Translations under genes and position numbers: made by a program
Notes under the pieces: generated by a model
The model's input: only the letters and a program-made list of their open reading frames with translations
Told to the model about the DNA's origin: nothing
Database searches by the model: none
NCBI GenBank assembly: GCA_001304015.1
Contig: LJUY01000017.1
Span: 1 to 62,340, forward strand
DNA from: a candidate division Zixibacteria bacterium SM23_81
GTDB taxonomy: Bacteria > SM23-81
Length of the DNA: 62,340 nt
Direction: 5' to 3'
Part shown: piece after piece, positions 6,348-46,668 of the stretch
Layout: every line of letters begins with the position of its first letter
Numbering within the stretch: position 1 is the first letter of the stretch

Positions 6348-6377
6348 TGGTAGCTCTTTGGAAAGCTTTCAATGAAG

Positions 6378-6454
6378 TCCGTTGGGGGTGGCCGCAAGGC
6401 CTGAGATGATACCCCTGGAACCTGATCTGGGTGATGCCAGCGGAGGGAAACGGT
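6378..6454 (+). promoter_or_regulatory. TPP (thi-box) riboswitch
   Basis: The conserved thi-box parts are present in order: GGGGTG, then CTGAGATGATACCC, then GAACCTGATCTGGGTGATGCCAGCG and GAGGGAA. CCGTT (6379-6383) can close helix P1 with AACGG (6449-6453). It binds thiamine pyrophosphate and, with the terminator that begins 11 nt later, should switch off transcription when TPP is plentiful. The next gene on this strand is the AIR-synthase-like gene about 430 nt downstream. No recognisable thiamine gene follows directly. Confidence 0.9.
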
Positions 6455-6464
6455 TGGTGGCGAG

Positions 6465-6491
6465 AGCGAACCTGATCGGGGTTTGCTTTTT
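6465..6491 (+). terminator. Rho-independent terminator of the TPP riboswitch
   Basis: AGCGAACC (6465-6472) pairs with GGTTTGCT (6480-6487) across a 7-nt loop and is followed by a run of T to 6491. Its position just after the aptamer fits the expression platform of a transcription-terminating riboswitch. Confidence 0.75.
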
Positions 6492-13954: not shown

Positions 13955-14124
13955 AATGTGTATGGGAATATTTGGAGATGGCATCATCATGGTAGTGTCG
14001 CTGAACGTTTCATTTTGCGCAGCGGCGCGCCGTGCCCCTCCGAATTGATGTCCATCGTTTTTCCCGAATCACGATTCCCGAATCCCTTTGATCCATAAGC
14101 ACCAAACACCAACAAAATATTCCC

Positions 14125-14153
14125 TTGACAAATCTAGCAGAAGGCGTTAAATT
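14125..14153 (+). promoter_or_regulatory. Sigma70-type promoter of the tRNA gene
   Basis: TTGACA at 14125-14130, then TAAATT at 14148-14153 after 17 nt. The tRNA begins 12 nt further on, consistent with a short 5' leader removed by RNase P. Confidence 0.75.
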
Positions 14154-14164
14154 AACAATCCGGT

Positions 14165-14241
14165 GGCGGTGTAGCTCAGTTGGTTAGAGCAGCGGAATCA
14201 TAATCCGCGTGTCCGGGGTTCGAATCCCTGCACCGCTACCA
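14165..14241 (+). tRNA. tRNA with CAU anticodon, probably elongator tRNA-Met
   Basis: A complete 77-nt cloverleaf: acceptor GGCGGTG/CACCGCT, D arm GCTC...GAGC, anticodon stem GCGGA/TCCGC with loop ATCATAA (anticodon CAT), T arm with GGTTCGAAT, and encoded CCA. The first pair is G-U rather than the C-A mismatch of initiators, and the anticodon stem lacks the three G-C pairs of initiators. The choice is therefore elongator Met or the Ile tRNA whose CAU becomes lysidine-AU. The overall sequence looks more like tRNA-Met. TilS, which makes lysidine, is encoded at 18692-20080, but this is not linkage evidence. Confidence 0.95.
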
Positions 14242-35912: not shown

Positions 35913-36197
35913 AATTCCGATGGTTGGCGGGACCGAGCTCATCTTTTCTCTTTGCAAAACGCCCCGGTCGGTGGGTGCTGATGAATTTGAAAATTCCCTG
36001 TTACCAGATACGTCCCTTCAGGCAGAACGGTGTCTTTCCATTTTGGGATCTGAGGTTTTTCTATAATCCCATGTGGGTGAATGAATAACCTGACTTCATG
36101 GTAGAGCCTAGTCTGTTGGCATGGTCCTTGCTGAAATTAAGCCAGGTCACCCAGCTTTCCAGGGAGAAAAAAAAGTTCTCTGAGCCCAAAAAAAACC
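35913..36197. other. Gene-free spacer at the end of the housekeeping run
   Basis: No gene, RNA or clear terminator was found between the last gene of the run and the promoter at 36198. A-rich tracts occur at 36166-36176 and 36188-36195. Confidence 0.4.
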
Positions 36198-36226
36198 TTG
36201 ACAAATTCTCCAGTATGTGATAAAAT
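36198..36226 (+). promoter_or_regulatory. Strong sigma70 promoter P1 of the 920-residue protein gene
   Basis: TTGACA (36198-36203), exactly 17 nt, TAAAAT (36221-36226). It opens a leader of about 310 nt. Just downstream GGTT-TATAA (36227-36236) and TTATA-AACC (36249-36258) can pair with one mismatch. Confidence 0.8.
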
Positions 36227-36333
36227 GGTTCTATAAAGTGCAAGAGTGTTATAAAACCGCAAAGAAGCGAAAGTTAATTTATTTCATTACAGAAATAGAT
36301 ATTTTTCCTAGCTAAAATACGTAATTCAATCTA

Positions 36334-36362
36334 TTGACGTTTTTTAAGAAATATTTTATGCT
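36334..36362 (+). promoter_or_regulatory. Possible second promoter P2 of the 920-residue protein gene
   Basis: TTGACG (36334-36339), 17 nt, TATGCT (36357-36362), in a very A/T-rich leader. Together with the upstream promoter it would give tandem starts 136 nt apart. Confidence 0.5.
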
Positions 36363-36542
36363 ACTTACCTAAGGATAGAGCATAAAAAGGGGCGGATAAC
36401 TGTATAGATAAGCTAGTTCCAATTTACCTAAACTGTTGTTATCTATCTAATTTAGAAGTCTGAAAGGAGGTGGAAGGGTCTGGAGAATTTTCTCGCAGAG
36501 GTGTGTTTGCGTTGGAACAATCCTCTATAAGGAGGCTCAATA

Positions 36543-39305
36543 ATGATGAGAAAGGTAATTTTTACGCTTCTTGTGGGCGTCATCCTCACCAGCGGTTGGG
36601 CATTTGCTGCTGTCGATGAAGATGAATCCATCAAAGCGGATACTCCTAAGGCCGTCGACAAGGTAAAGATGGCGGACGAGTTTTACTTTGTCGACATTAA
36701 GGACGACCAGGTTCACAGGGCCGAGAGAACACCCTGGGCCGCTCGCAGCTCCAAGGGGTCCAAAGCCGTGATCGACACCATAGCGCATTTCACCGGCGAG
36801 AGTGGCGGGAGTCCTACCTGGCAAGACCGGAAGATGGCACCCGCTGAGTGGGATACGGTGGATAATACCATACCCCCACCTCCGGAGGACTGGGTTTTGT
36901 ACTGGCATGTGGACACGGTTGAGGTGGTCAACGGTGATAGCGCCTGGTGGTGTGGAGATCCCAGCATAGGTCCTTATGGCGGATACGGCGACGATTGGTA
37001 TCAGACCCTCATATCTCCGGTCCTTCACCTGCCCGCTGGTAGCGATTCGATTGTCCTGGAATTTGACCAATTATTGAGATGTGAGATCAACACTTACGTC
37101 TCTGTGTTCAGCTGGGACGGATATAACGTGCGGATTGACACCAGTGACTTTGCCACCGACAACTTCTTTGAGATTAAGCCCTATCATCCCGAGGATGACA
37201 GCTCGTACTACAAACCTCCGATACAGTTCCCCCCCAGTCTTAGAAACCATTTTGGCGAATATGACAGCCTGTGGTGCTGGGACTATAACAGGGATCCTAA
37301 GGGTCATGGCGGCATATCCGTAGATAGCTCCACCGTCCTTTACCCCAGGATATTCGATTTCTCTGACTTTGCCGGGGATAGCGTCAAGTTCCAAATCGTC
37401 TTTTCCAGCGACGGAGCTTACAACACAGAGGATGATGAGGACCTAATTGGCCTCATAGTGGACGACATCAAGGTGACAGCTTTTGGTACCAAAGATACTG
37501 TTCTGCTCAATGAGACCTGCGAGGCTGCGCAGATGCCTCATAAGATGACGCCGGCAACTTGGTTCGCTGACCCCACCGGGAATTACTGGTGGCTGTCCAC
37601 CCCAGACGCACACACGGGTATCTACAAAGCCTGGTGCTCATTGCCGGGAACCGGGAATTATGTCTCAAATTTGGAAAATGCCCTGGTCTCGCCAAAGATT
37701 TATCGGGCTAACCTGGACACCAACATGGCCGATATGTGGCTGGATTGGTGGCTGAAATGCCAAGTTGATGCTGCCAACACCGGTGCTTATAACGAGTTTA
37801 AGCTCGACGACGGCGACTGGAGCTATATCAGCACATTGCACGGAGTCGGATCGTACTATTATGGCCTAGGCGGCGTCACAAACTCGGAGTGGTGGACCGT
37901 CTATCAGTGGAGCGATTTTATGCACGACATGTCGCCCCTGATAACCGATACCAGCATCCACTGGGATAGCCTGCAGGTTGCCGTTGGCTTCTTCAGCCGG
38001 GAGGCTACTCCCCCAGTTGGCGGTTTAGGGCTCAAGGTGGACGACATCACTCTATTTGGTCGAATTGGGTATCCCAACGATCTGGGCGTGACCGCTGCGA
38101 AGATCCCCATGCCTAACTCCAACGATGTGAGGCTCTATATGGATACCGTTGCCGTCGAGAACTACGGTTTCAACACGGCCGGTGGCGGCAACTACTTCAT
38201 CAAGATGACCATCGTTGACGGCGCCAACAATGTGGTCTTCGGCCCAGCGACGCAAATTGCGCATCCTGGCCCCCCACCACCCCCTGATATTCCGCCTCTG
38301 CAAACAAGAAAGGTGGCACTGGATACCTCTGTGGCCAACTTCACTCTGACGCAGGAGGGTCCCTATACCTTCTACATCTGGAGCGAGTGGACCGCCGTGA
38401 CCGACGACGATGGCTCTAACGACACCCTGGCCACCGAGTACACGCCGCCCAGCAAGGCCCTCCACTATCCCGATACTTATAACTATCCGGCCGGCCTTGC
38501 CGAGCTCAGATATCACGATCAGGGCCTCTACATGTATCCCTACTTCAATGTGAGGGAGATGCTTCCTGGTGAGATAGCCGCAGTCCATTTCACTCCAGAG
38601 GAAAGGTTCTATCCCTTCGATTTGGGCCTCGCCATTCCACATTTTAATTCGGATGGCAGTAATGTCACCTTGAAAGTGTGGGGACCCGGCGTCGACGACG
38701 ATCACCCCGGGACCCTATGGTTCGATAGCACATTCACCACGACCGTGGATTCCTTGATCACACCATACCCTATCAACCTGGATCTGGTGGCCAACCTGCA
38801 GCACCTGAGCACCGATTTCTGGATGGGTGTGGAATGGGCCGATACGGTGGATCGATGCATGGCGTATGAAGGCGGCGATGATCCCACTCTCAGCACCGTG
38901 CAGTGGAACCATAGCTACCTGTACACCGAAGGTGCTTGGGAGCAACACAGCAATGACTGGTATTTCGAAGGCATGATCAGGTTCCGGAGCGTCGTCGATC
39001 CAATAGCGGTCACGCCGTCCCAGAGCGGACCGCCCAAGAACTCCTCGGGCAACCTCTATCTTGATTGGAATGACGTCAGCCAGACTTATCACTACCGCAT
39101 CTATCGCGGAACAGATGCTTACGGGTCGGCGGCTCTGTTTGATTCTGCTGCCGCCTCCAACTACACGGATAATTCTGGTGTGGTGGGCGACGTCAACACG
39201 CACTACTATTACCAGATCCTTCCCGTTCACCAGGATAGCTCCATCTATGGTAAGGCCAGTAAGCGGGTGGGCGAATTCGACAGGTCCGTGATCAAGGCGA
39301 AGTAG
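36543..39305 (+). CDS. Large secreted protein with beta-sandwich domains
   Basis: A 920-residue protein with a clear signal peptide (residues 1-22, ending AFA). Two regions, about 160-320 and 330-500, look like MAM/choice-of-anchor-type jelly rolls (LISPVLHLPAGSDSIVLEFDQLLRC; ALVSPKIYRANLDTNMADMWLDWWLKC). Each ends with a VDDI(K/T)(V/L) strand (LIVDDIKVTAFG; LKVDDITLFG). A proline-rich hinge follows near 580 and a fibronectin III-like domain closes the protein (YLDWNDVSQTYHYRIYRGTD). No protease motif and no YPNPFNP sorting domain are visible, so it may leave by another route or lack surface anchoring. AAGGAGG is 10 nt before ATG 36543. It has its own strong promoter, so abundant expression is likely. 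Confidence 0.8.
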   Translation: MMRKVIFTLLVGVILTSGWAFAAVDEDESIKADTPKAVDKVKMADEFYFVDIKDDQVHRAERTPWAARSSKGSKAVIDTIAHFTGESGGSPTWQDRKMAPAEWDTVDNTIPPPPEDWVLYWHVDTVEVVNGDSAWWCGDPSIGPYGGYGDDWYQTLISPVLHLPAGSDSIVLEFDQLLRCEINTYVSVFSWDGYNVRIDTSDFATDNFFEIKPYHPEDDSSYYKPPIQFPPSLRNHFGEYDSLWCWDYNRDPKGHGGISVDSSTVLYPRIFDFSDFAGDSVKFQIVFSSDGAYNTEDDEDLIGLIVDDIKVTAFGTKDTVLLNETCEAAQMPHKMTPATWFADPTGNYWWLSTPDAHTGIYKAWCSLPGTGNYVSNLENALVSPKIYRANLDTNMADMWLDWWLKCQVDAANTGAYNEFKLDDGDWSYISTLHGVGSYYYGLGGVTNSEWWTVYQWSDFMHDMSPLITDTSIHWDSLQVAVGFFSREATPPVGGLGLKVDDITLFGRIGYPNDLGVTAAKIPMPNSNDVRLYMDTVAVENYGFNTAGGGNYFIKMTIVDGANNVVFGPATQIAHPGPPPPPDIPPLQTRKVALDTSVANFTLTQEGPYTFYIWSEWTAVTDDDGSNDTLATEYTPPSKALHYPDTYNYPAGLAELRYHDQGLYMYPYFNVREMLPGEIAAVHFTPEERFYPFDLGLAIPHFNSDGSNVTLKVWGPGVDDDHPGTLWFDSTFTTTVDSLITPYPINLDLVANLQHLSTDFWMGVEWADTVDRCMAYEGGDDPTLSTVQWNHSYLYTEGAWEQHSNDWYFEGMIRFRSVVDPIAVTPSQSGPPKNSSGNLYLDWNDVSQTYHYRIYRGTDAYGSAALFDSAAASNYTDNSGVVGDVNTHYYYQILPVHQDSSIYGKASKRVGEFDRSVIKAK

Positions 39306-39362
39306 GTTGAGTACATCACAAAGATGGGTTAGAAAAAAAGTTTCATTTGCCCAACTTTTTGC

Positions 39363-39391
39363 TTGACAAAATTGCCCATCTTTGATATAAT
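39363..39391 (+). promoter_or_regulatory. Perfect-consensus sigma70 promoter
   Basis: TTGACA (39363-39368), 17-nt spacer, TATAAT (39386-39391). Both boxes and the spacing are exactly consensus, rare for a bacterial gene. It drives the duplicated-domain protein gene at 39592 and perhaps the next gene by read-through. Confidence 0.92.
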
Positions 39392-39401
39392 GACCTTAGA
39401 G

Positions 39402-39433
39402 CCCTGGAGAGGCTCTAGGAAGCCTCTCCAGGG
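39402..39433 (+). promoter_or_regulatory. 5'-terminal mRNA stem-loop
   Basis: CCCTGGAGAGGCT (39402-39414) is followed by a 6-nt loop and its exact 13-nt complement (39421-39433). The predicted transcription start is about 39398, so the hairpin sits at the very 5' end of the message. There is no T-run, so it is not a terminator; such 5' hairpins are known to protect mRNAs from 5'-end-dependent decay (for example ompA). Protection here is inference. Confidence 0.75.
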
Positions 39434-39591
39434 TGAAGAGGTTCGAAGGAAAAGGTTCCAGAGGTGAAAATCATTTTCATCCTTAGAAGGAGGTGAGGTC
39501 GGTTTCCAAAGAGGCGGTTGTACCGGCATGTTGGGAAGCTTTGCTTCCACCCGCTTAACACGAATCGTTTCTTTATAGGAGGAGGAGATAA

Positions 39592-40428
39592 ATGAAGGTG
39601 AAAATCTCTCTCGTGGTTGTGTTCGCGACCTTGGTTGCGGCCACCTGGGCTTTTGGAGACGGCTTCAATATGGTGAGCTGGCCGCTTTTACCCCATAACA
39701 CCAGCATTCAAGCCGCTATGGCCGACTCCATGGGCACAGGCTGTCAATTAACGGGTAGCTTCATGTCGTTTTACGCTGATTTGGTTAGGTATTATGATGC
39801 CTCCACGAGCACCTGGTATACAGGCTGGTATAGCACTACGCTGAGTGCCTGGCAGGGGGATCTGACCACCATCGAACCTGACAAGGGGTACTGGATCCAG
39901 ATTCGGGGTGGTAATCCCGCGGTGACCTTGACCATGACCGGGGGCGTCTGTGACACTAACCGTATCGTGCCCGTCTACGACTCGGCAACTCTGACTACTT
40001 TTAATTTAGTGGGCACTGCTTTTGCCGTTCCCTGTTCTCTTAAAGATTGCGGTATGGTGGCCAGCGGTTTCACCGGGTCGTTTATGTCGTTTTATTCGGA
40101 CAAGGTGCGTCACTGGGACGGTGCTACTTGGTTTACGGCCTGGTATAGCACGACACTGAGTGCTTGGCAAGGCGACCTCTATACCCTCGACCCGGGTGAT
40201 GGTTACTGGCTGGAGATACTGGCCGGGCACGGTTTCACCAACGATGAGTGGGTCTATCCGGTTCCTCCAAGCTACGCCAAGGGCGCCAAAACCGTGGCGA
40301 GCCGCCAGACGAGGGGCAGGGCTTCCGTGGAGAGAGAGTTGCCTGTACGTGTGATCCGGACCCTGGGAGGCAGCACCAACACGAGCTTGAAACCGGAGAA
40401 ACAGGTGGAGGCCAAGAAGACCAGGTAA
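39592..40428 (+). CDS. Secreted protein with a duplicated domain
   Basis: A 278-residue protein with a signal peptide (about 1-21). It contains two copies of a domain of about 100-110 residues: copy one has FNMVSWPLLPH, TGSFMSFYADLVRYYD, WYSTTLSAWQGDL and GYWIQI; copy two has FNLVGTAF, TGSFMSFYSDKVRHWD, the identical WYSTTLSAWQGDL and GYWLEI. The core is reminiscent of small domains with the 'NxVSxPL...GYWv' pattern seen in FCB secreted proteins. The C-terminal 45 residues are basic and unstructured, with no T9SS sorting domain. A GGAGGAGG ribosome site precedes ATG 39592. Its promoter is a perfect consensus, so it may be a major product. Function unknown. Confidence 0.82.
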   Translation: MKVKISLVVVFATLVAATWAFGDGFNMVSWPLLPHNTSIQAAMADSMGTGCQLTGSFMSFYADLVRYYDASTSTWYTGWYSTTLSAWQGDLTTIEPDKGYWIQIRGGNPAVTLTMTGGVCDTNRIVPVYDSATLTTFNLVGTAFAVPCSLKDCGMVASGFTGSFMSFYSDKVRHWDGATWFTAWYSTTLSAWQGDLYTLDPGDGYWLEILAGHGFTNDEWVYPVPPSYAKGAKTVASRQTRGRASVERELPVRVIRTLGGSTNTSLKPEKQVEAKKTR

Positions 40429-40607
40429 GCCTTGCGTCCCTGAGGCTTTCAGATTACCGGCTTTCTGATTTTTACCGGCTTTCTATTGCGAAGTTTGGAA
40501 GGGGGTGAGAGCAGGGCCATTCTTGAAGGTGGTTGTTGTTGTTGAAACAACCAGAGGTTTTTCGTAAGATGAGGTGAACTATTTCCCCGGAAGGAGGGAA
40601 AGAAAAG

Positions 40608-41690
40608 ATGAGAAAGCTTTTTCTATTGATCATGGTACTGGGTGCTTTTGTGGCCACCCAGGTCTACGCCACTCCCTCGCCTATGGATATCTATGGTGGC
40701 TTCGATCCCGGTGTTGGCATCTGGACTCTGCGTGGACCTGATGGTGTAACTCCTCTGAACGTGGGCGACTGCGTCTGTATTTACTGGAAGGGCCCGAATG
40801 GTGTGCGCGATGGGCTCGATTTCGTCAATGCGCCCGAGCCAGCGGACGATGATGTGCTGCTGGAATGCATTGGGATAGGCCCCAACGATGGCGCGACTGG
40901 GCCTGCGTTCTTCAAGCTGGGCCTGGGCACTTTTCAATCGGGTGGAGGCCATCCCGCGGCCTGTGAGGAGATCTACGTTTGTATCTTCGACGATCCTTGC
41001 GCCGACCTGGATCCCAGCAACTACTTTGCTTATTCCGATCAGTATCACGTGCTGAATCAATCGGGTGAGACCTTCTTCGCCAAATTTCCCGGCGATCCCG
41101 GTGGTGGTTACACCGATACCCCGCTGCCCGTTGAGCTGATGTCCTTCGACGCCATCGCCCGGGACGGCGAGGTTCTGTTAGAGTGGAAGACGGCCAGTGA
41201 GACCAACGCTCTCGGGTTCTACATCGAAAGGGATGGAGAGCGGATCAACCAGGAGCTCATTCCGGCTGCCGGCCATGCTACCACCGAGAACACTTACACC
41301 TACGCGGACAGAGGCCTGACCAACGGGGTCACCTACTACTACGATCTGTTCACCCAGGATCTGGATGGCGTGACGATGAAGGCCAACACGGAGCCCATGG
41401 CGGCCACTCCGATGGCCCATGTGCCCACCGTGTTCGCTCTTCATCAGAACTATCCCAACCCGTTCAACCCGTATACCGACATCAAGTACGACCTCCCCGA
41501 GGACGTGCATGTCACCTTGAAGGTATACAACATTCTTGGTGCTGAGGTGGCCACATTGGTGAATACCAAACAGCAGGCCAACTTCTACACAGTGCGTTGG
41601 GATGCCGAGAATCTGGCTAGTGGTGTGTATTTCTGCACCATCACTGCCGGTGATAACAAGGCCGTGAGGAAGATGGTTCTGATGAAGTAG
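40608..41690 (+). CDS. T9SS-exported protein with one IYGG domain
   Basis: A 360-residue protein. Signal peptide 1-22; residues about 26-160 form a domain starting DIYGGFD, with GDCVCIYWKGPNGVRDG, DDDVLLECIGIGPNDG and ending GETFFAKFP, the same domain that is repeated in the neighbouring gene at 44497-46612. A fibronectin III-like segment follows (PLPVELMSFDAIARDGEVLLEWKTASETN, about 175-265), then the type A T9SS sorting domain (YPNPFNPYTDIKYDLPE...GVYFCTITAGDNKAVRKMVLMK, read in pieces). GGAAGGAGGG precedes ATG 40608. No own promoter is obvious in the 180-nt gap, so read-through from 39363 is possible. A strong terminator follows. Confidence 0.88.
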   Translation: MRKLFLLIMVLGAFVATQVYATPSPMDIYGGFDPGVGIWTLRGPDGVTPLNVGDCVCIYWKGPNGVRDGLDFVNAPEPADDDVLLECIGIGPNDGATGPAFFKLGLGTFQSGGGHPAACEEIYVCIFDDPCADLDPSNYFAYSDQYHVLNQSGETFFAKFPGDPGGGYTDTPLPVELMSFDAIARDGEVLLEWKTASETNALGFYIERDGERINQELIPAAGHATTENTYTYADRGLTNGVTYYYDLFTQDLDGVTMKANTEPMAATPMAHVPTVFALHQNYPNPFNPYTDIKYDLPEDVHVTLKVYNILGAEVATLVNTKQQANFYTVRWDAENLASGVYFCTITAGDNKAVRKMVLMK

Positions 41691-41715
41691 TACGACATCG
41701 CGAGCTCACATGAAA

Positions 41716-41750
41716 GCAGCGCCTTCCCCTTGTGGAAGGCGCTGTTTTTT
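41716..41750 (+). terminator. Rho-independent terminator
   Basis: CAGCGCCTTCC (41716-41726) pairs with GGAAGGCGCTG (41733-41743) across a short loop and is followed by seven or more T. Confidence 0.92.
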
Positions 41751-42444
41751 TGTCCCCCGAGCATATCTCATTGGGTAATTCAAAGAGAAATTATTGATTG
41801 ATGTCACCGAGAAAACAGTCTGTTATTTCAGAGAGCCCCAGGGATTGGTGATTTTCGCGAAGACCTGCCTTCCTTGTGGTGATGGTGGCCAGCGAGACCG
41901 ACTGTTGTGAATTCCGCAGGGCAGTGGCCTTGGTGTATTGGGCTGCCCAGGTTTCGGCCATGGGGATGGTTAAGAAGCAGATCTTGGTAGTTTTTGGCGT
42001 CAAGCTGTCAGGGATTATCTTCGCATGAGTGTGGGATCATAGGGCAATAGGCGTGGAGGGTTATCAAAGCCCCCAGCTTCGTTAAACAGGCTGTTTCAAC
42101 GATTACCTTTCTCAGTAATCGAGCAGATGAACATTGTGCTCCGTGAGGTCACTGGATCGGCATTCTCTTGGAACCTTCTCACTGCCCTCCGGCACCCTTG
42201 TTCCCATGGAGCGAACGGGACATGTGCTCAGATGTTCCCGTGCCAGGGTGGAGCAAGTTGCAAGAGCATAGATTGTTATTTTCTGCTAAAAGAAAAGTCT
42301 TTGACCAGAACACATCCTGAATTAAGGGAGCTTCCTGATGGAGCTGAGGCCATTCATGAAGTTTTTCCCGGCGCGATAGGGGAACAGATTGGATGGGTCA
42401 AAATCCCGCTGCCAATAATGAGGGCATAGCAGAGAAAAAACCTC
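41751..42444. other. Long gene-poor spacer
   Basis: About 690 nt between a terminator and the next promoter. Open frames exist on both strands (41791-42003 minus, 42127-42429 plus), but neither has a recognisable protein pattern or convincing ribosome site. No RNA gene was recognised. Confidence 0.45.
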
Positions 42445-42473
42445 TTGACAAAAGGCCCGCCATGGATTAGATA
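42445..42473 (+). promoter_or_regulatory. Sigma70-type promoter of the SBBP gene
   Basis: TTGACA (42445-42450), 17 nt, TAGATA (42468-42473). The start codon lies about 70 nt downstream with a GGGGGAGG ribosome site. Confidence 0.78.
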
Positions 42474-42543
42474 AGGGAAGTGATGTGCCCAATCCTGGCT
42501 GAGTCTTGAGCAACCGCGAGGGAAACCGAGGGGGAGGTCTACC

Positions 42544-44034
42544 ATGAATCAGAAGAAGAAAATTGTTGCACTCATCGTCTTGCACCTTTTGCTGTTCTTC
42601 TGCGCGCAGCCCAAGGTCGCTGAGATCGACCTCGTCTGGAGTACCTTTCTGGGAGAAAGCGCCACCGACGAGGGCTTTGGCATCGCCGTGGATGGCTCCG
42701 GCAACGTTTACGTGACGGGATTCGTCGGTTCAGTCGACTTTCCCACCACACCCGGGGCTTTTGACAACACCTATAATGGTGGCCCTCTGGACGCTTATGT
42801 GGCCAAGCTCAATCCGACTGGAGACGCCCTTGTCTATGCCACCTTCCTAGGGGGTGAGGGTGAGGACAGGGGCTATGGCATCGCCGTGGACGGCTTAGGT
42901 GGTGCCTACGTGACGGGCAGGACCAGGTCAGTCGATTTTCCCACCACATCTGGGGCTTTTGATACCACACACAACGGAGACCACGACATCTTTATGGTCA
43001 AGCTCAACCCATCGGGAAACGATCTCACTTATGCCACCTATCTGGGGGGAAGCGATGACGAACATACTGAGAGCATCGCCCTGGACGGCTTGGGCAGCGC
43101 CTACGTGGCTGGGTTGACCAGGTCAATTGACTTTCCCACAACAGAGGGGGCCTTCAGAATCAGCCATTGCAGCCCCGGGGAGGAGGATGCCTTTGTGGTC
43201 AAGCTCAATCCGGAGGGAGCTGATCTGGTCTTCGGCACCTTCTTGGGAGGAAGCGCTGAAGACTGGGGTCTTGATATCGCCGTGAATGGCGCTGGCAACG
43301 CCTACGTGGGCGGATTGACCTATTCGGTCGATTTTCCCACCACACCGAAGGCTCTCGACACCTCATACAACGGCGCCCGGGACGCTTTTGTGGCCAAGCT
43401 CAACCTGGCGGGAAGCGATCTTGTCTACGGCACTTTCTTGGGAGGTAGCAATCAAGACTGGAGCCATGGTATTGCCGTAGACGGCGCCGGCAACGTCTAT
43501 CTGACCGGGACCACCTATTCCCATGACTTTCCCATCACCGCCGGGGCTATCGATACCGTCTACAACGGGTTCACCGACGTCTTTGTGTCTCAAATCAATC
43601 CCTCAGGAAACGCACTAGTCTATTCCACTTTTCTGGGAGGAAGCGACGAGGAGCGAGGCATTGATATCGCCGTAGACGGCGCCGGCAGCCTGTATCTGGT
43701 CGGATATACCAGATCCGTCGAATTCCCCATCTCAGTTGGGGCTTTCGATGGTGACCACAACGGCCAATCCGATGTTTTTGTGACGAGGCTCAAGCCAGCG
43801 GAAAACGCCCTTGCCTACGCTACATTCCTGGGAGGAGACTCCAATGATGTGGCCCGTGGCCTGGCCGTAGATGACTCGGGCAACGCCTACCTGACCGGGT
43901 GGACCGAGTCAGGTGATTTTCCCACCACACCGGGGGCTTTCGATACCTCATACAGCGGTGCCGAAGACGCCTTTGTGGCCAAGTTGCACTTTTGCACTCA
44001 CGGCCGTACAGCTCGGCTCCGCGGCCATCAGTGA
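42544..44034 (+). CDS. SBBP-repeat beta-propeller secreted protein
   Basis: A 496-residue protein with an N-terminal signal peptide (about 1-24, with FFCAQ). The rest consists of seven SBBP repeats of about 59 residues, each built as ...YATFLGGxxEDxGxGIAVDGxGNxYVTGxTxSxDFPTTxGAFDTxYNGxxDxFVxKLNPxG, expected to form a beta-propeller. The last repeat ends abruptly in HFCTHGRTARLRGHQ, with no T9SS sorting domain, unlike most FCB proteins of this kind, so the 3' end may be damaged. The frame after the stop (to 44227) encodes nothing recognisable. Own promoter upstream. Function unknown; such propellers often bind surface polymers. Confidence 0.85.
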   Translation: MNQKKKIVALIVLHLLLFFCAQPKVAEIDLVWSTFLGESATDEGFGIAVDGSGNVYVTGFVGSVDFPTTPGAFDNTYNGGPLDAYVAKLNPTGDALVYATFLGGEGEDRGYGIAVDGLGGAYVTGRTRSVDFPTTSGAFDTTHNGDHDIFMVKLNPSGNDLTYATYLGGSDDEHTESIALDGLGSAYVAGLTRSIDFPTTEGAFRISHCSPGEEDAFVVKLNPEGADLVFGTFLGGSAEDWGLDIAVNGAGNAYVGGLTYSVDFPTTPKALDTSYNGARDAFVAKLNLAGSDLVYGTFLGGSNQDWSHGIAVDGAGNVYLTGTTYSHDFPITAGAIDTVYNGFTDVFVSQINPSGNALVYSTFLGGSDEERGIDIAVDGAGSLYLVGYTRSVEFPISVGAFDGDHNGQSDVFVTRLKPAENALAYATFLGGDSNDVARGLAVDDSGNAYLTGWTESGDFPTTPGAFDTSYSGAEDAFVAKLHFCTHGRTARLRGHQ

Positions 44035-44310
44035 TCAGGGCTTCTTGGCCTCAAAGGGAGTCGTGGTTTCGAAAATAAGCTGCCATGGGGGGAGATTTTC
44101 ATCCCCATATCAGAAGTCGGGCAACGCTCCAAGATTGGCAGGTTGGGTTGGAGCAGCTATGGGCCGGAGACAGTGGATCAGTGTTGATAATTTCCAGGCC
44201 GTGAAACTGTTGGAAAAGACGAAGTAAGGTGTATTTTTAATTGCGCTTAGCCCAGAATGTCGCGCTGTTGGAAGATGCCATATTTTTGCCTTCCTGGGTC
44301 GAAAAAAGGC
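44035..44310. other. Spacer after the SBBP gene
   Basis: The stretch may hold the decayed 3' end of the SBBP gene. An overlapping frame reads to a stop at 44227 and ends VDNFQAVKLLEKTK, but shows no domain I recognise. No terminator was identified. Confidence 0.3.
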
Positions 44311-44339
44311 TTGACAAAAGCAAGAGCAAGTATTATTAT
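44311..44339 (+). promoter_or_regulatory. Sigma70-type promoter of the multi-IYGG gene
   Basis: TTGACA (44311-44316), 17 nt, TATTAT (44334-44339; an overlapping TATTAT begins at 44331). The leader is about 150 nt and contains GGAGGAGGTGAGG about 115 nt before the start codon. Confidence 0.8.
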
Positions 44340-44496
44340 TAGAATTCTTATAAACACTTATCAAAATCTGAGGACTGAGGAGGAGGTGAGGACTTCAGGA
44401 AAAGTTTCATCTGCAAATTGGGCAGAGAATTGAGTGGGTAATATTCATAGAGAAGGACAAACCGAGAGGAAGGGGCCTCAAAAAAGGAGTGTCAAG

Positions 44497-45156
44497 ATGA
44501 CAAGGAAGGCATTTGGCGTGGCGGTCGTGTTATCCCTCATCCTGCTGGGAGTCCAGGCGACTCTGGGCGAGCCGGGTATGCAACCGGGTTTTATTGACTT
44601 GTATGGCGGTTTTGACGGAGCTAGCTTGTGGCACCTAACCGATGAGAATATGGATAGCTTGGAGGTAGGCGACGTCGTGATGGCCATCTATGCGGGCCCA
44701 GACGAGATCATCGATCTGCCGGTCCAGGCGGCGGGGAGCCCGTACAATGGACAGGTCACAGGGGATGATATCATCATCCCGGCCAATAGTGCGTTTATCA
44801 ATAATATGGGGTTTTTCTTTTTTACCATCCCCAGTTGGAACCCGGGTGACACCGACTCTTTGGGGAATCAGAGACACCCGGTAGCGGGGGAGAAGATCTA
44901 TACCCGGGTTTTCAACGACGGGCAGGTGACCAATGCCACCTATTACGGAGATAGTAACCTAAAGGTGGTGGCTGGGGGGATGGGCGAGGTGATGTTTTTC
45001 CAGCTGCCCAACGACCCTAACGGGCCCACTACCGACACCCAGAACTTCGGGCGGTTCTTCAAGATCATCGGCGGGATTGACCCCGCCAAACCTCCCCGAC
45101 ACCACCCGGATGCCCGGCGGAGACGACGTTCGCATCCAGACCTGGCGGGTAGGTGA
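44497..45156 (+). CDS. T9SS cargo with repeated IYGG domains, N-terminal part before a frameshift
   Basis: Starts at ATG 44497 (AAAAAAGGAG upstream) with a signal peptide (about 1-24, ending TLGEPG). The first domain (about residues 30-175) begins DLYGGFDGASLWHL, has GDVVMAIYAGPDEIIDL and GEKIYTRVFNDGQVTNATYYGDS, and ends GEVMFFQLPN. A second copy starts FFKIIGGIDPAK, and then the frame runs into arginine-rich nonsense (HHPDARRRRRSHPD) until 45156. The proper continuation is in the frame of 45077-46612. Comparison with repeats three and four shows that about 32 codons of repeat two are missing at the junction (45080-45115). So this is the front half of one gene split by a deletion or an assembly error. 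Confidence 0.8.
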   Translation: MTRKAFGVAVVLSLILLGVQATLGEPGMQPGFIDLYGGFDGASLWHLTDENMDSLEVGDVVMAIYAGPDEIIDLPVQAAGSPYNGQVTGDDIIIPANSAFINNMGFFFFTIPSWNPGDTDSLGNQRHPVAGEKIYTRVFNDGQVTNATYYGDSNLKVVAGGMGEVMFFQLPNDPNGPTTDTQNFGRFFKIIGGIDPAKPPRHHPDARRRRRSHPDLAGR

Positions 45157-46612
45157 GGGATTTTTGCCCCAAACCGACACCGGCACCTTTAGAAGGTTTA
45201 CGGGTTCATTTGATGACCCCAGCCATGGTCGTCCAGCTCAAGGTGATGTGATTTACATACGGCTGTTTAACGCCAGCAATCTCCTGGAGGCCACGCATTA
45301 TGGCGACAGTCAGACCTATACGGTGAATTACGTCATCGGTGAGTCTCTGAGTGTGTTCTTCGACGATGAGGTAGATTGTTCTATGCCCGTCGAAATCTCA
45401 GAGGAAAGAGATCTCACCATTATCGGCGGATTGGATACCACCGATGTCAGCTACTGGCCCCTGATTGATGGTGACGGGAATGAGCTTGAGGACGGGGATC
45501 TGGTTCAGCTCATCTGGGCGGGCTCTGACGGCCTCATCGATCCTCTGGACGATGTCACCGGCGAACCCACCGGAGACGACAGTCTTCTGGCTTCCTGGGG
45601 CATCGGCCAGGGCTTGGGCCCTGGAACAGGTCGTTTCAAATATGAACTATTCACCTATGAGAGCCACGCCAAAGGCTATCCCGCCCAGGGAGATCACATC
45701 TATCTGCGGTCTTTCGATGGCAGCAGTTTGGGTGAAGGTACAGGATCAACATGGTACGGCGAGACGCCCATCTACCAGGTGCAGTGGGAGTTCGGCGAGA
45801 TGTTCTACAGCTTTCCGGACAGCGCCTTCGATGACACTACGCGTACGCCCTGGTATAGGAGCCTGACCATTTACGGTGGGTTGGACGCGTCTATGAACCA
45901 GTTTCCGCTGACGGATAGCTCTGGGGCCATGCTGGATGATGGGGATCTGGTTCAGATGATCTGGGCTGGTCCTGACGAGGTCATCGACCCCATAAGCGTC
46001 ACGGATTGCATGCCCACGGGAGATGATAGTCTGCTGGCCACCTGGGGTGTCGGCACGGGATTCGACGCCTCGACAGGCCTATTCAAGGGGGAATTTCAGA
46101 CATTTTCCGCCCATAAGGGCGGTTTTCCGGCCCAGGGAGATTATCTCTACTTGCGCCTCTTCAACGGCTCCCTTTACACCGATGCCACCCACTATGGTGA
46201 GAGCGCGCTTCATGAAGTGGCCTATGTCCAGGATGAGCAGTTCTTTAGCTTTCCCGATGCCACCAATGATGCCATTATTCCCAACCCCTGCTACACATCT
46301 GTCGAGTGGTCCAACCCGACGACTTCACTGCCTACTCAATACGCCTTGTCCCAGAACTATCCCAACCCGTTTAATCCTGTGACGGACATTCAATACCAGA
46401 TTCCGGAAGCCGTCCACGTTGAGCTAAGCATTTACAACGTGCTGGGCCAGGCAATTTACACGCTGGTCGACGACCAGCGTGCCGCCGGGAAATACACCAT
46501 TCGCTGGTTTGGGACGGATAGCCAAGGCAGGGAAGTGAGCGCAGGTCTCTATTTCTATCAGATCAAGGCGGGCGACTTCGTCAGCGTGCGTAAAATGGTG
46601 TTGCTCAAGTAG
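45077..46612 (+). CDS. T9SS cargo with repeated IYGG domains, C-terminal part after the frameshift
   Basis: This frame has no credible start codon or ribosome site of its own; meaningful sequence begins around 45095 (DTTRMPGGDD, end of the damaged second repeat). Two complete copies follow: TIIGGLDTTDVSYWPLIDGDG...GEMFYSFPD and TIYGGLDASMNQFPLTDSSG...DEQFFSFPD, each about 135 residues and sharing DGDLVQ(L/M)IWAG, PTGDDSLLA(S/T)WG(I/V)G, (G/F)PAQGD and YGE. The end is a type A T9SS sorting domain (YPNPFNPVTDIQYQIPE...KAGDFVSVRKMVLLK, read in pieces). With the upstream half it would make a surface protein of about 700 residues. A clear terminator follows. Confidence 0.8.
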   Translation: MTPPNLPDTTRMPGGDDVRIQTWRVGEGFLPQTDTGTFRRFTGSFDDPSHGRPAQGDVIYIRLFNASNLLEATHYGDSQTYTVNYVIGESLSVFFDDEVDCSMPVEISEERDLTIIGGLDTTDVSYWPLIDGDGNELEDGDLVQLIWAGSDGLIDPLDDVTGEPTGDDSLLASWGIGQGLGPGTGRFKYELFTYESHAKGYPAQGDHIYLRSFDGSSLGEGTGSTWYGETPIYQVQWEFGEMFYSFPDSAFDDTTRTPWYRSLTIYGGLDASMNQFPLTDSSGAMLDDGDLVQMIWAGPDEVIDPISVTDCMPTGDDSLLATWGVGTGFDASTGLFKGEFQTFSAHKGGFPAQGDYLYLRLFNGSLYTDATHYGESALHEVAYVQDEQFFSFPDATNDAIIPNPCYTSVEWSNPTTSLPTQYALSQNYPNPFNPVTDIQYQIPEAVHVELSIYNVLGQAIYTLVDDQRAAGKYTIRWFGTDSQGREVSAGLYFYQIKAGDFVSVRKMVLLK

Positions 46613-46638
46613 CGAGTTAAGGAATCAAGATGAGGAAA

Positions 46639-46668
46639 AGGCAGCGTCCCTGAGGCGCTGCCTTTTTT
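46639..46668 (+). terminator. Rho-independent terminator
   Basis: AGGCAGCG (46639-46646) pairs with CGCTGCCT (46656-46663) and is followed by six T. Confidence 0.9.

Follow-up and report, generated by a model that had tools for sequence, protein, structure and literature searches.

Secreted-protein genes of the island

This analysis concerns a run of secreted-protein genes, and a sequence element in their leaders, in contig C94 (GenBank LJUY01000017.1; 62,340 nt, hereafter the window) from the draft genome of the candidate division Zixibacteria bacterium SM23_81 (G000; 3.07 Mb, 99 contigs, 92.6% complete). The run, or island, includes five consecutive open reading frames (ORFs), A to E, each with a signal-peptide-like N-terminus (Table 1). 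In three of the leaders (A, B and E), an extended Shine-Dalgarno (SD) sequence is located far upstream of the SD from which the gene is translated. An earlier annotation made from the letters alone (the sequence-only reading) had noted five secreted-protein genes in a row with one split by a frameshift, and the same arrangement is found here, the split gene being E, which spans two frames. The assignment of signal peptides, gene starts and promoters followed simple rules, and the genome-wide tests consisted of searches and targeted stretches. The relatives compared are G001 (same family, sister genus) and G002 and G003 (same phylum), from a phylum that is sparsely sampled.

Table 1. Positions of genes, promoters and leader features in and around the island
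Feature	Position	Strand	Remark
sigma54 (-24/-12) promoter TGGCATGGTCCTTGCT, upstream of A	36117..36132	+	identical in G001
sigma70 promoter of A, TTGACA-17-TAAAAT (11/12), TG before -10	36198..36226	+	conserved in G001
second, weaker sigma70-like site (9/12), leader A	36334..36362	+	poor alignment in G001
interior extended SD GAAAGGAGGTG, leader A	36462..36472	+	70 nt upstream of start codon
gene A, 920-aa secreted protein, no Pfam family	36543..39305	+	46% identical orthologue in G001, same gene order
sigma70 promoter of B, full consensus TTGACA-17-TATAAT (12/12)	39363..39391	+	
14-bp stem-loop, ~3 nt from predicted 5' end of transcript B	39401..39434	+	-29.6 kcal/mol, z = -3.9
interior extended SD AAGGAGGTGA, leader B	39487..39496	+	95 nt upstream of start codon
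gene B, 278-aa secreted protein, two repeats, no family	39592..40428	+	without homologue in G001
degenerate interior SD GGAAGGGGGTGAG, upstream of C	40497..40509	+	identified by eye
gene C, one C/E repeat domain and T9SS sorting tail	40608..41690	+	
intrinsic terminator-like hairpin followed by T run, 3' of C	41720..41753	+	
gene D, SBBP beta-propeller, without sorting tail	42544..44034	+	
sigma70 promoter of E, TTGACA-17-TATTAT (11/12)	44311..44339	+	
interior extended SD AGGAGGTGAGG, leader E	44381..44391	+	about 106 nt upstream of start codon
gene E, several C/E repeat domains and T9SS sorting tail	44497..46612	+	frame broken in second repeat (~45077-45156)

The two proteins that the sequence-only reading had credited with sorting domains of the type IX secretion system (T9SS) are C and E, as detected by Pfam (Por_Secre_tail, 1.4e-11 and 9.7e-06, respectively) and by TIGR04183 (1.2e-11 and 1.4e-9). 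The SprA translocon, placed 3 kb away in that reading, is likewise recovered: sprA begins 3 kb downstream of the island (SprA_N 6.4e-32). Proteins A, B and D have no C-terminal T9SS sorting domain (Por_Secre_tail or related). C and E are paralogues with a repeat domain in common. In the second repeat of E, ~30 residues found in the other repeats are missing, either by a real deletion or by assembly collapse between repeats. Gene A has no PDB relative by sequence, and the predicted structures of C and A (predicted local distance difference test scores of 40 and 31) are too low in confidence for use. The gap between C and D (41690-42543) includes 850 nt without a convincing gene and has the terminator-like hairpin at its beginning.

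The five genes were at first taken for a conserved, dedicated surface-coat or adhesion system, a proposal that draws on the five consecutive secreted proteins, the two T9SS tails and the strong promoters. Comparison with G001, the nearest relative, argues against it. The gene order dprA-ptsI-...-metK-ahcY-OMP-35364-A (OMP, outer-membrane protein) is kept in G001, and sprA-lptF-lptG is also conserved but on a different contig. Gene A alone of the island is retained in this neighbourhood; B has no homologue in G001, the C/E repeat domain was not found there (among the matches listed, only the sorting tail of E matched), and D was not included in the search. The loss of the neighbourhood in close relatives, which the sequence-only reading had named as evidence against a functional system, therefore holds for B, C and E. 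A dedicated five-gene system is rejected on this comparison. In addition, Por_Secre_tail has 79 matches in the genome, such that two tails near sprA mean little, C and E are paralogous, and gene E is broken. A surface-coat or adhesion gene system is, thus, very unlikely, and the region is instead probably a series of secreted-protein genes under separate control, with high-expression leaders on their mRNAs.

Promoters and interior Shine-Dalgarno elements

The interior SDs of leaders A, B and E are of the GAAAGGAGGTGA type and reside 70-110 nt ahead of the gene start, and no start codon is at working distance from them. The sequence GAAAGGAGGTGAT is complementary to the 3' tail of the 16S ribosomal RNA (rRNA), for which the general bacterial consensus was used. 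When leader A is aligned to that of its G001 orthologue, four blocks are conserved, namely the sigma54 site, the sigma70 promoter, the true SD and, between the latter two, an interior block (TCTGAAAGGAGGTGGAA) that is identical at 17 of 17 positions. This interior block forms the best conserved 17-nt window of a leader that is only 42% identical as a whole. The element is also kept in two further orthologous leader pairs (C10/C195 and C18/C82), the former of which keeps the sigma54 site as well.

Leader B has, in addition to its interior SD, a 5' stem-loop that was equalled by none of 200 shuffles. This hairpin alone is unusual, while the folding of leaders A and E is not. The Rfam covariance models give no match at E<=1 between 36000 and 46700, and a riboswitch or structured RNA was rejected on this result together with the ordinary folding of leaders A and E. 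The hairpin, the interior extended SDs and the sigma54 site were all missed by the sequence-only reading.

Promoters with at least 11 of the 12 consensus positions are found in the window, on either strand, only before A, B and E (island shuffles, mean 0.04), in accord with the earlier statement that promoters are weaker elsewhere. All three have a 17-nt spacer and a CTTGACAAA context. Four TTGACA-17-TATAAT-like promoters had been proposed; those of A, B and E stand, and the fourth does not, as the TTGACA at 42445 before gene D has no acceptable -10 and the site at 36334 reaches only 9/12. The one promoter described as fully consensus is that of B, and the leaders described as long (100-310 nt) measure about 310 nt (A), 195 nt (B) and 150 nt (E) from the predicted promoters. 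Near-consensus promoters also precede other genes and are, thus, not specific to the island. They occur before 14 of the 60 T9SS-tailed genes outside the island and before 6 of 59 genes for non-secreted proteins, a difference that is not significant (p=0.08), and the near-consensus promoter was accordingly rejected as a mark of secreted genes. The CTTGACAAA context is also noted before a tRNA gene at 14165 (region 14124-14238).

The element within the genome and across phyla

Words of the 16S complement were sought at -35 to -250 of 65 genes of G000, namely A to E and the 60 other T9SS-tailed genes. Words of at least 9 nt are present in 11 of the 65, compared to a mean of 0.63 and a maximum of 4 in 300 shuffles. 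The 8-nt words are biased to the sense strand (16 sense, 1 antisense and 4 reversed). A leader word complementary to the general-consensus 16S 3' end and positioned away from the start is carried by A, B and E and by at least five further T9SS-tailed genes. The composite of promoter and interior SD has 4 matches in G000 and 4 in G001 (two of the eight being ordinary start-proximal SDs), while control matches number 0 in 60 genomes.

The double-SD arrangement, searched as AAGGAGGTG-N50-80-AGGAG-N4-12-ATG, is found in 39 of 98 genomes. The loci read were 30 chosen by the tool (one per genome) and 40 picked by hand, a choice that passed over some in which a gene plainly starts at the first SD; cases where the first SD itself starts an ORF were set aside before counting. 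Of the 21 tool-chosen cases that were left, 16 have a downstream gene that encodes a signal peptide (41/52 overall). By contrast, signal peptides are encoded by 30 of 249 control SD-ATG genes from 80 unrelated loci (p=4.6e-10 versus the tool-chosen set) and by 15 of 123 control genes with the upstream 100 nt free (p=4.9e-9 versus the same set). This association with signal-peptide genes extends across many phyla. The non-secreted carriers include DsrA-like and Hsp20-like genes (named by eye), the products of which are often made in bulk, and fit high expression. In 46 leaders, complementarity to the 16S tail continues beyond the bases fixed by the search pattern (next A, 31/46; following T, 29/46; preceding A, 31/46), and the distance from element to start is 61-93 nt with a median of 72.5 (permitted range of the search, 59-97). 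In genome G058, six near-identical secreted-protein genes are scattered on six contigs, each with the same interior-SD leader (L292-L298).

Words that are rich in purines and resemble an SD occur commonly upstream of genes, and those found here could be chance by-products without meaning. As AAGGAGGTG is also the optimal real SD of the genome (L241), leftovers of old starts would look alike. The shuffle, strand, cross-genome secreted-gene and conservation tests are, however, all above chance, which renders this explanation highly improbable.

The interior SD could also be the ribosome-binding site of a short leader peptide, the translation of which regulates, or is coupled to, the secreted-protein gene. 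Reading from the GTG of GGAGGTG, in A as well as in the G001 orthologue, gives an open frame that overlaps the main start, and in a few other loci (L283, L319), a start codon 5-9 nt downstream opens an ORF that overlaps the gene. This GTG is, however, inside the SD, at a spacing of zero to one base, and its frame is barely more open than the other usable frame (median of 16 versus 12 codons). The peptides that could be encoded in leaders A, B and E are unrelated and differ in length. Furthermore, start codons at a spacing of 5-11 nt from the element are not enriched (13/45, with ~15 expected by chance). The leader peptide is disfavoured by this missing start-codon signal downstream of the element and is considered improbable.

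Predicted action of the leader and related control sites

The leaders of the island are probably high-expression leaders in which the interior SD provides a non-initiating docking site for the 30S ribosomal subunit, as in the STAB-SD, aprE and ompA leaders. In the proposed mechanism, a near-consensus sigma70 promoter (for A, with the sigma54 promoter upstream) would start a long leader, and a 30S subunit would dock at an interior word of 9-12 nt that is fully complementary to the 16S tail and located 70-110 nt upstream of the start codon. As no start codon is at working distance, the docked subunit would not initiate. It may instead shield the leader from ribonucleases and/or raise the local supply of ribosomes, and the 5' hairpin of leader B may do the same job. 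The predicted outcome is the abundant production of surface and secreted proteins from long-lived mRNAs. Docking, stabilization and high expression are inferred; the last had been claimed in the sequence-only reading and is, as an inference, well supported by the near-consensus promoters, the interior extended SDs and the 5' stem-loop of B.

Several findings weigh against this proposal. Gene D has no qualifying promoter or element, and gene C has only a degenerate element and no strong promoter of its own. Some of the element-like words in the 65-gene test (8-nt matches) fall in the preceding coding sequence, and elements are not significantly more frequent in the island than among the other T9SS-tailed genes (3/5 versus 13/60, p=0.09). 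RNase J (TIGR00649) was not found above the cut-off in G000 to G003 (G000 being 92.6% complete). The classical RNase J-dependent STAB-SD mechanism, thus, cannot apply as described and was rejected, and the leader would be a variant. Any protection would need to be directed at endonucleases, as for ompA; alternatively, a docked 30S subunit may raise the ribosome supply.

A related possibility is that the element serves as a standby or loading site, which raises the rate of downstream translation and not mRNA stability. The 60-95 nt spacing leaves space for a second 30S subunit at the true SD, and the link to abundantly made proteins fits loading as well as it does stability. Known standby sites, however, are usually unstructured and located beside a structured ribosome-binding site, and no conserved structure is seen around the true SD; stability and loading are not distinguishable from sequence. 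A pure standby role is, thus, viewed as rather unlikely compared to a docking site of the STAB-SD, aprE or ompA kind.

Among the closest known systems is the STAB-SD of cry3A from Bacillus thuringiensis, which is described to bind the 30S subunit and block RNase J1 (Agaisse and Lereclus 1996; reviewed in PMC4113751). The leaders described here share with cry3A an SD, positioned ~100 nt from the start, that is complementary to the 3' end of the 16S rRNA; that of cry3A is described as non-initiating and its protein as very abundant. By contrast, the host lineage of this study is Gram-negative, bears a T9SS and gave no match to RNase J; stabilization is presumed, and the elements are inside the leader, preceded by predicted promoters and for the most part followed by secreted-protein genes. 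For aprE and ompA, SD binding without translation, together with a 5' stem-loop, is reported to stabilize the mRNA (PMC7509114, PMC11805744). Leader B resembles the Bacillus subtilis aprE leader (Hambraeus 2000 and 2002, via PMC11805744) in that a 5'-terminal 14-bp stem-loop is paired with an extended SD, but aprE, as presented in that source, uses its own SD in place of a separate second one. The Escherichia coli ompA leader (via PMC7509114) is alike in its 5' stem-loop and strong SD, which are described to stabilize the mRNA of an abundant outer-membrane protein even when the start codon is missing, and this in an organism with RNase E; it differs, according to this account, in having a single SD and no interior non-initiating site.

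In the open-access literature, STAB-SD is discussed almost only for Bacillus and its relatives. The leader type described here probably keeps mRNAs stable or well loaded with ribosomes in many distant bacteria. More tentatively, and with somewhat less than even confidence, the non-initiating extended SD may be a widespread and undescribed cis element of secretome and top-expressed mRNAs across many phyla, which acts independently of RNase J and parks the 30S subunit for endonuclease protection or ribosome pre-loading. If so, a stabilizer known from a single Bacillus toxin gene and a small number of other Gram-positive leaders would become a general device for secreted and surface proteins. As the element would be recognizable from sequence alone, the prediction of abundant surface proteins would become possible for uncultured lineages, and whether ribosome parking, and not translation, sets mRNA lifetime could be tested outside of Firmicutes and E. 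coli.

The sigma54 site upstream of A is the only exact match to TGGCAY-N5-TTGCW in the window and has the GG-N10-GC arrangement. The exact pattern has 14 sites in the genome, compared to 1 for the backward control, and rpoN is present in G000 to G003. Judged by eye from the downstream ORFs, the majority of these 14 sites are located before genes for secreted or envelope proteins. This distribution is in line with the view that sigma54 controls the bacterial exterior (Francke et al. 2011, PMC3162934). What differs from that view is the position of the site ~80 nt upstream of a near-consensus sigma70 promoter in A and in a T9SS-tailed gene on contig C10 (L164/L194), both arrangements being conserved in the sister genus. 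The C10 gene has the same series as A (sigma54 site, sigma70 promoter, interior SD, true SD and start), which is kept in its G001 orthologue (L253). The sites at L164, L165, L167, L169, L170, L171, L172 and L174 are found before secreted proteins, a lipoprotein, and polysaccharide-export-like and GspF-like proteins, and form a candidate sigma54 exterior regulon.

Apart from the island, the window includes a thiamine pyrophosphate (TPP) riboswitch at 6374-6465 (69.2 bits). On contigs C31 and C87 of the same genome (L002, L008, L009), a palindrome (ACTCTAATTAGAGT, one copy imperfect) overlaps the -10 of three near-consensus promoters. These promoters precede two related secreted (OMP-like) proteins and a membrane protein that resembles TauE/SafE-type transporters, and the palindrome looks like a candidate repressor operator.
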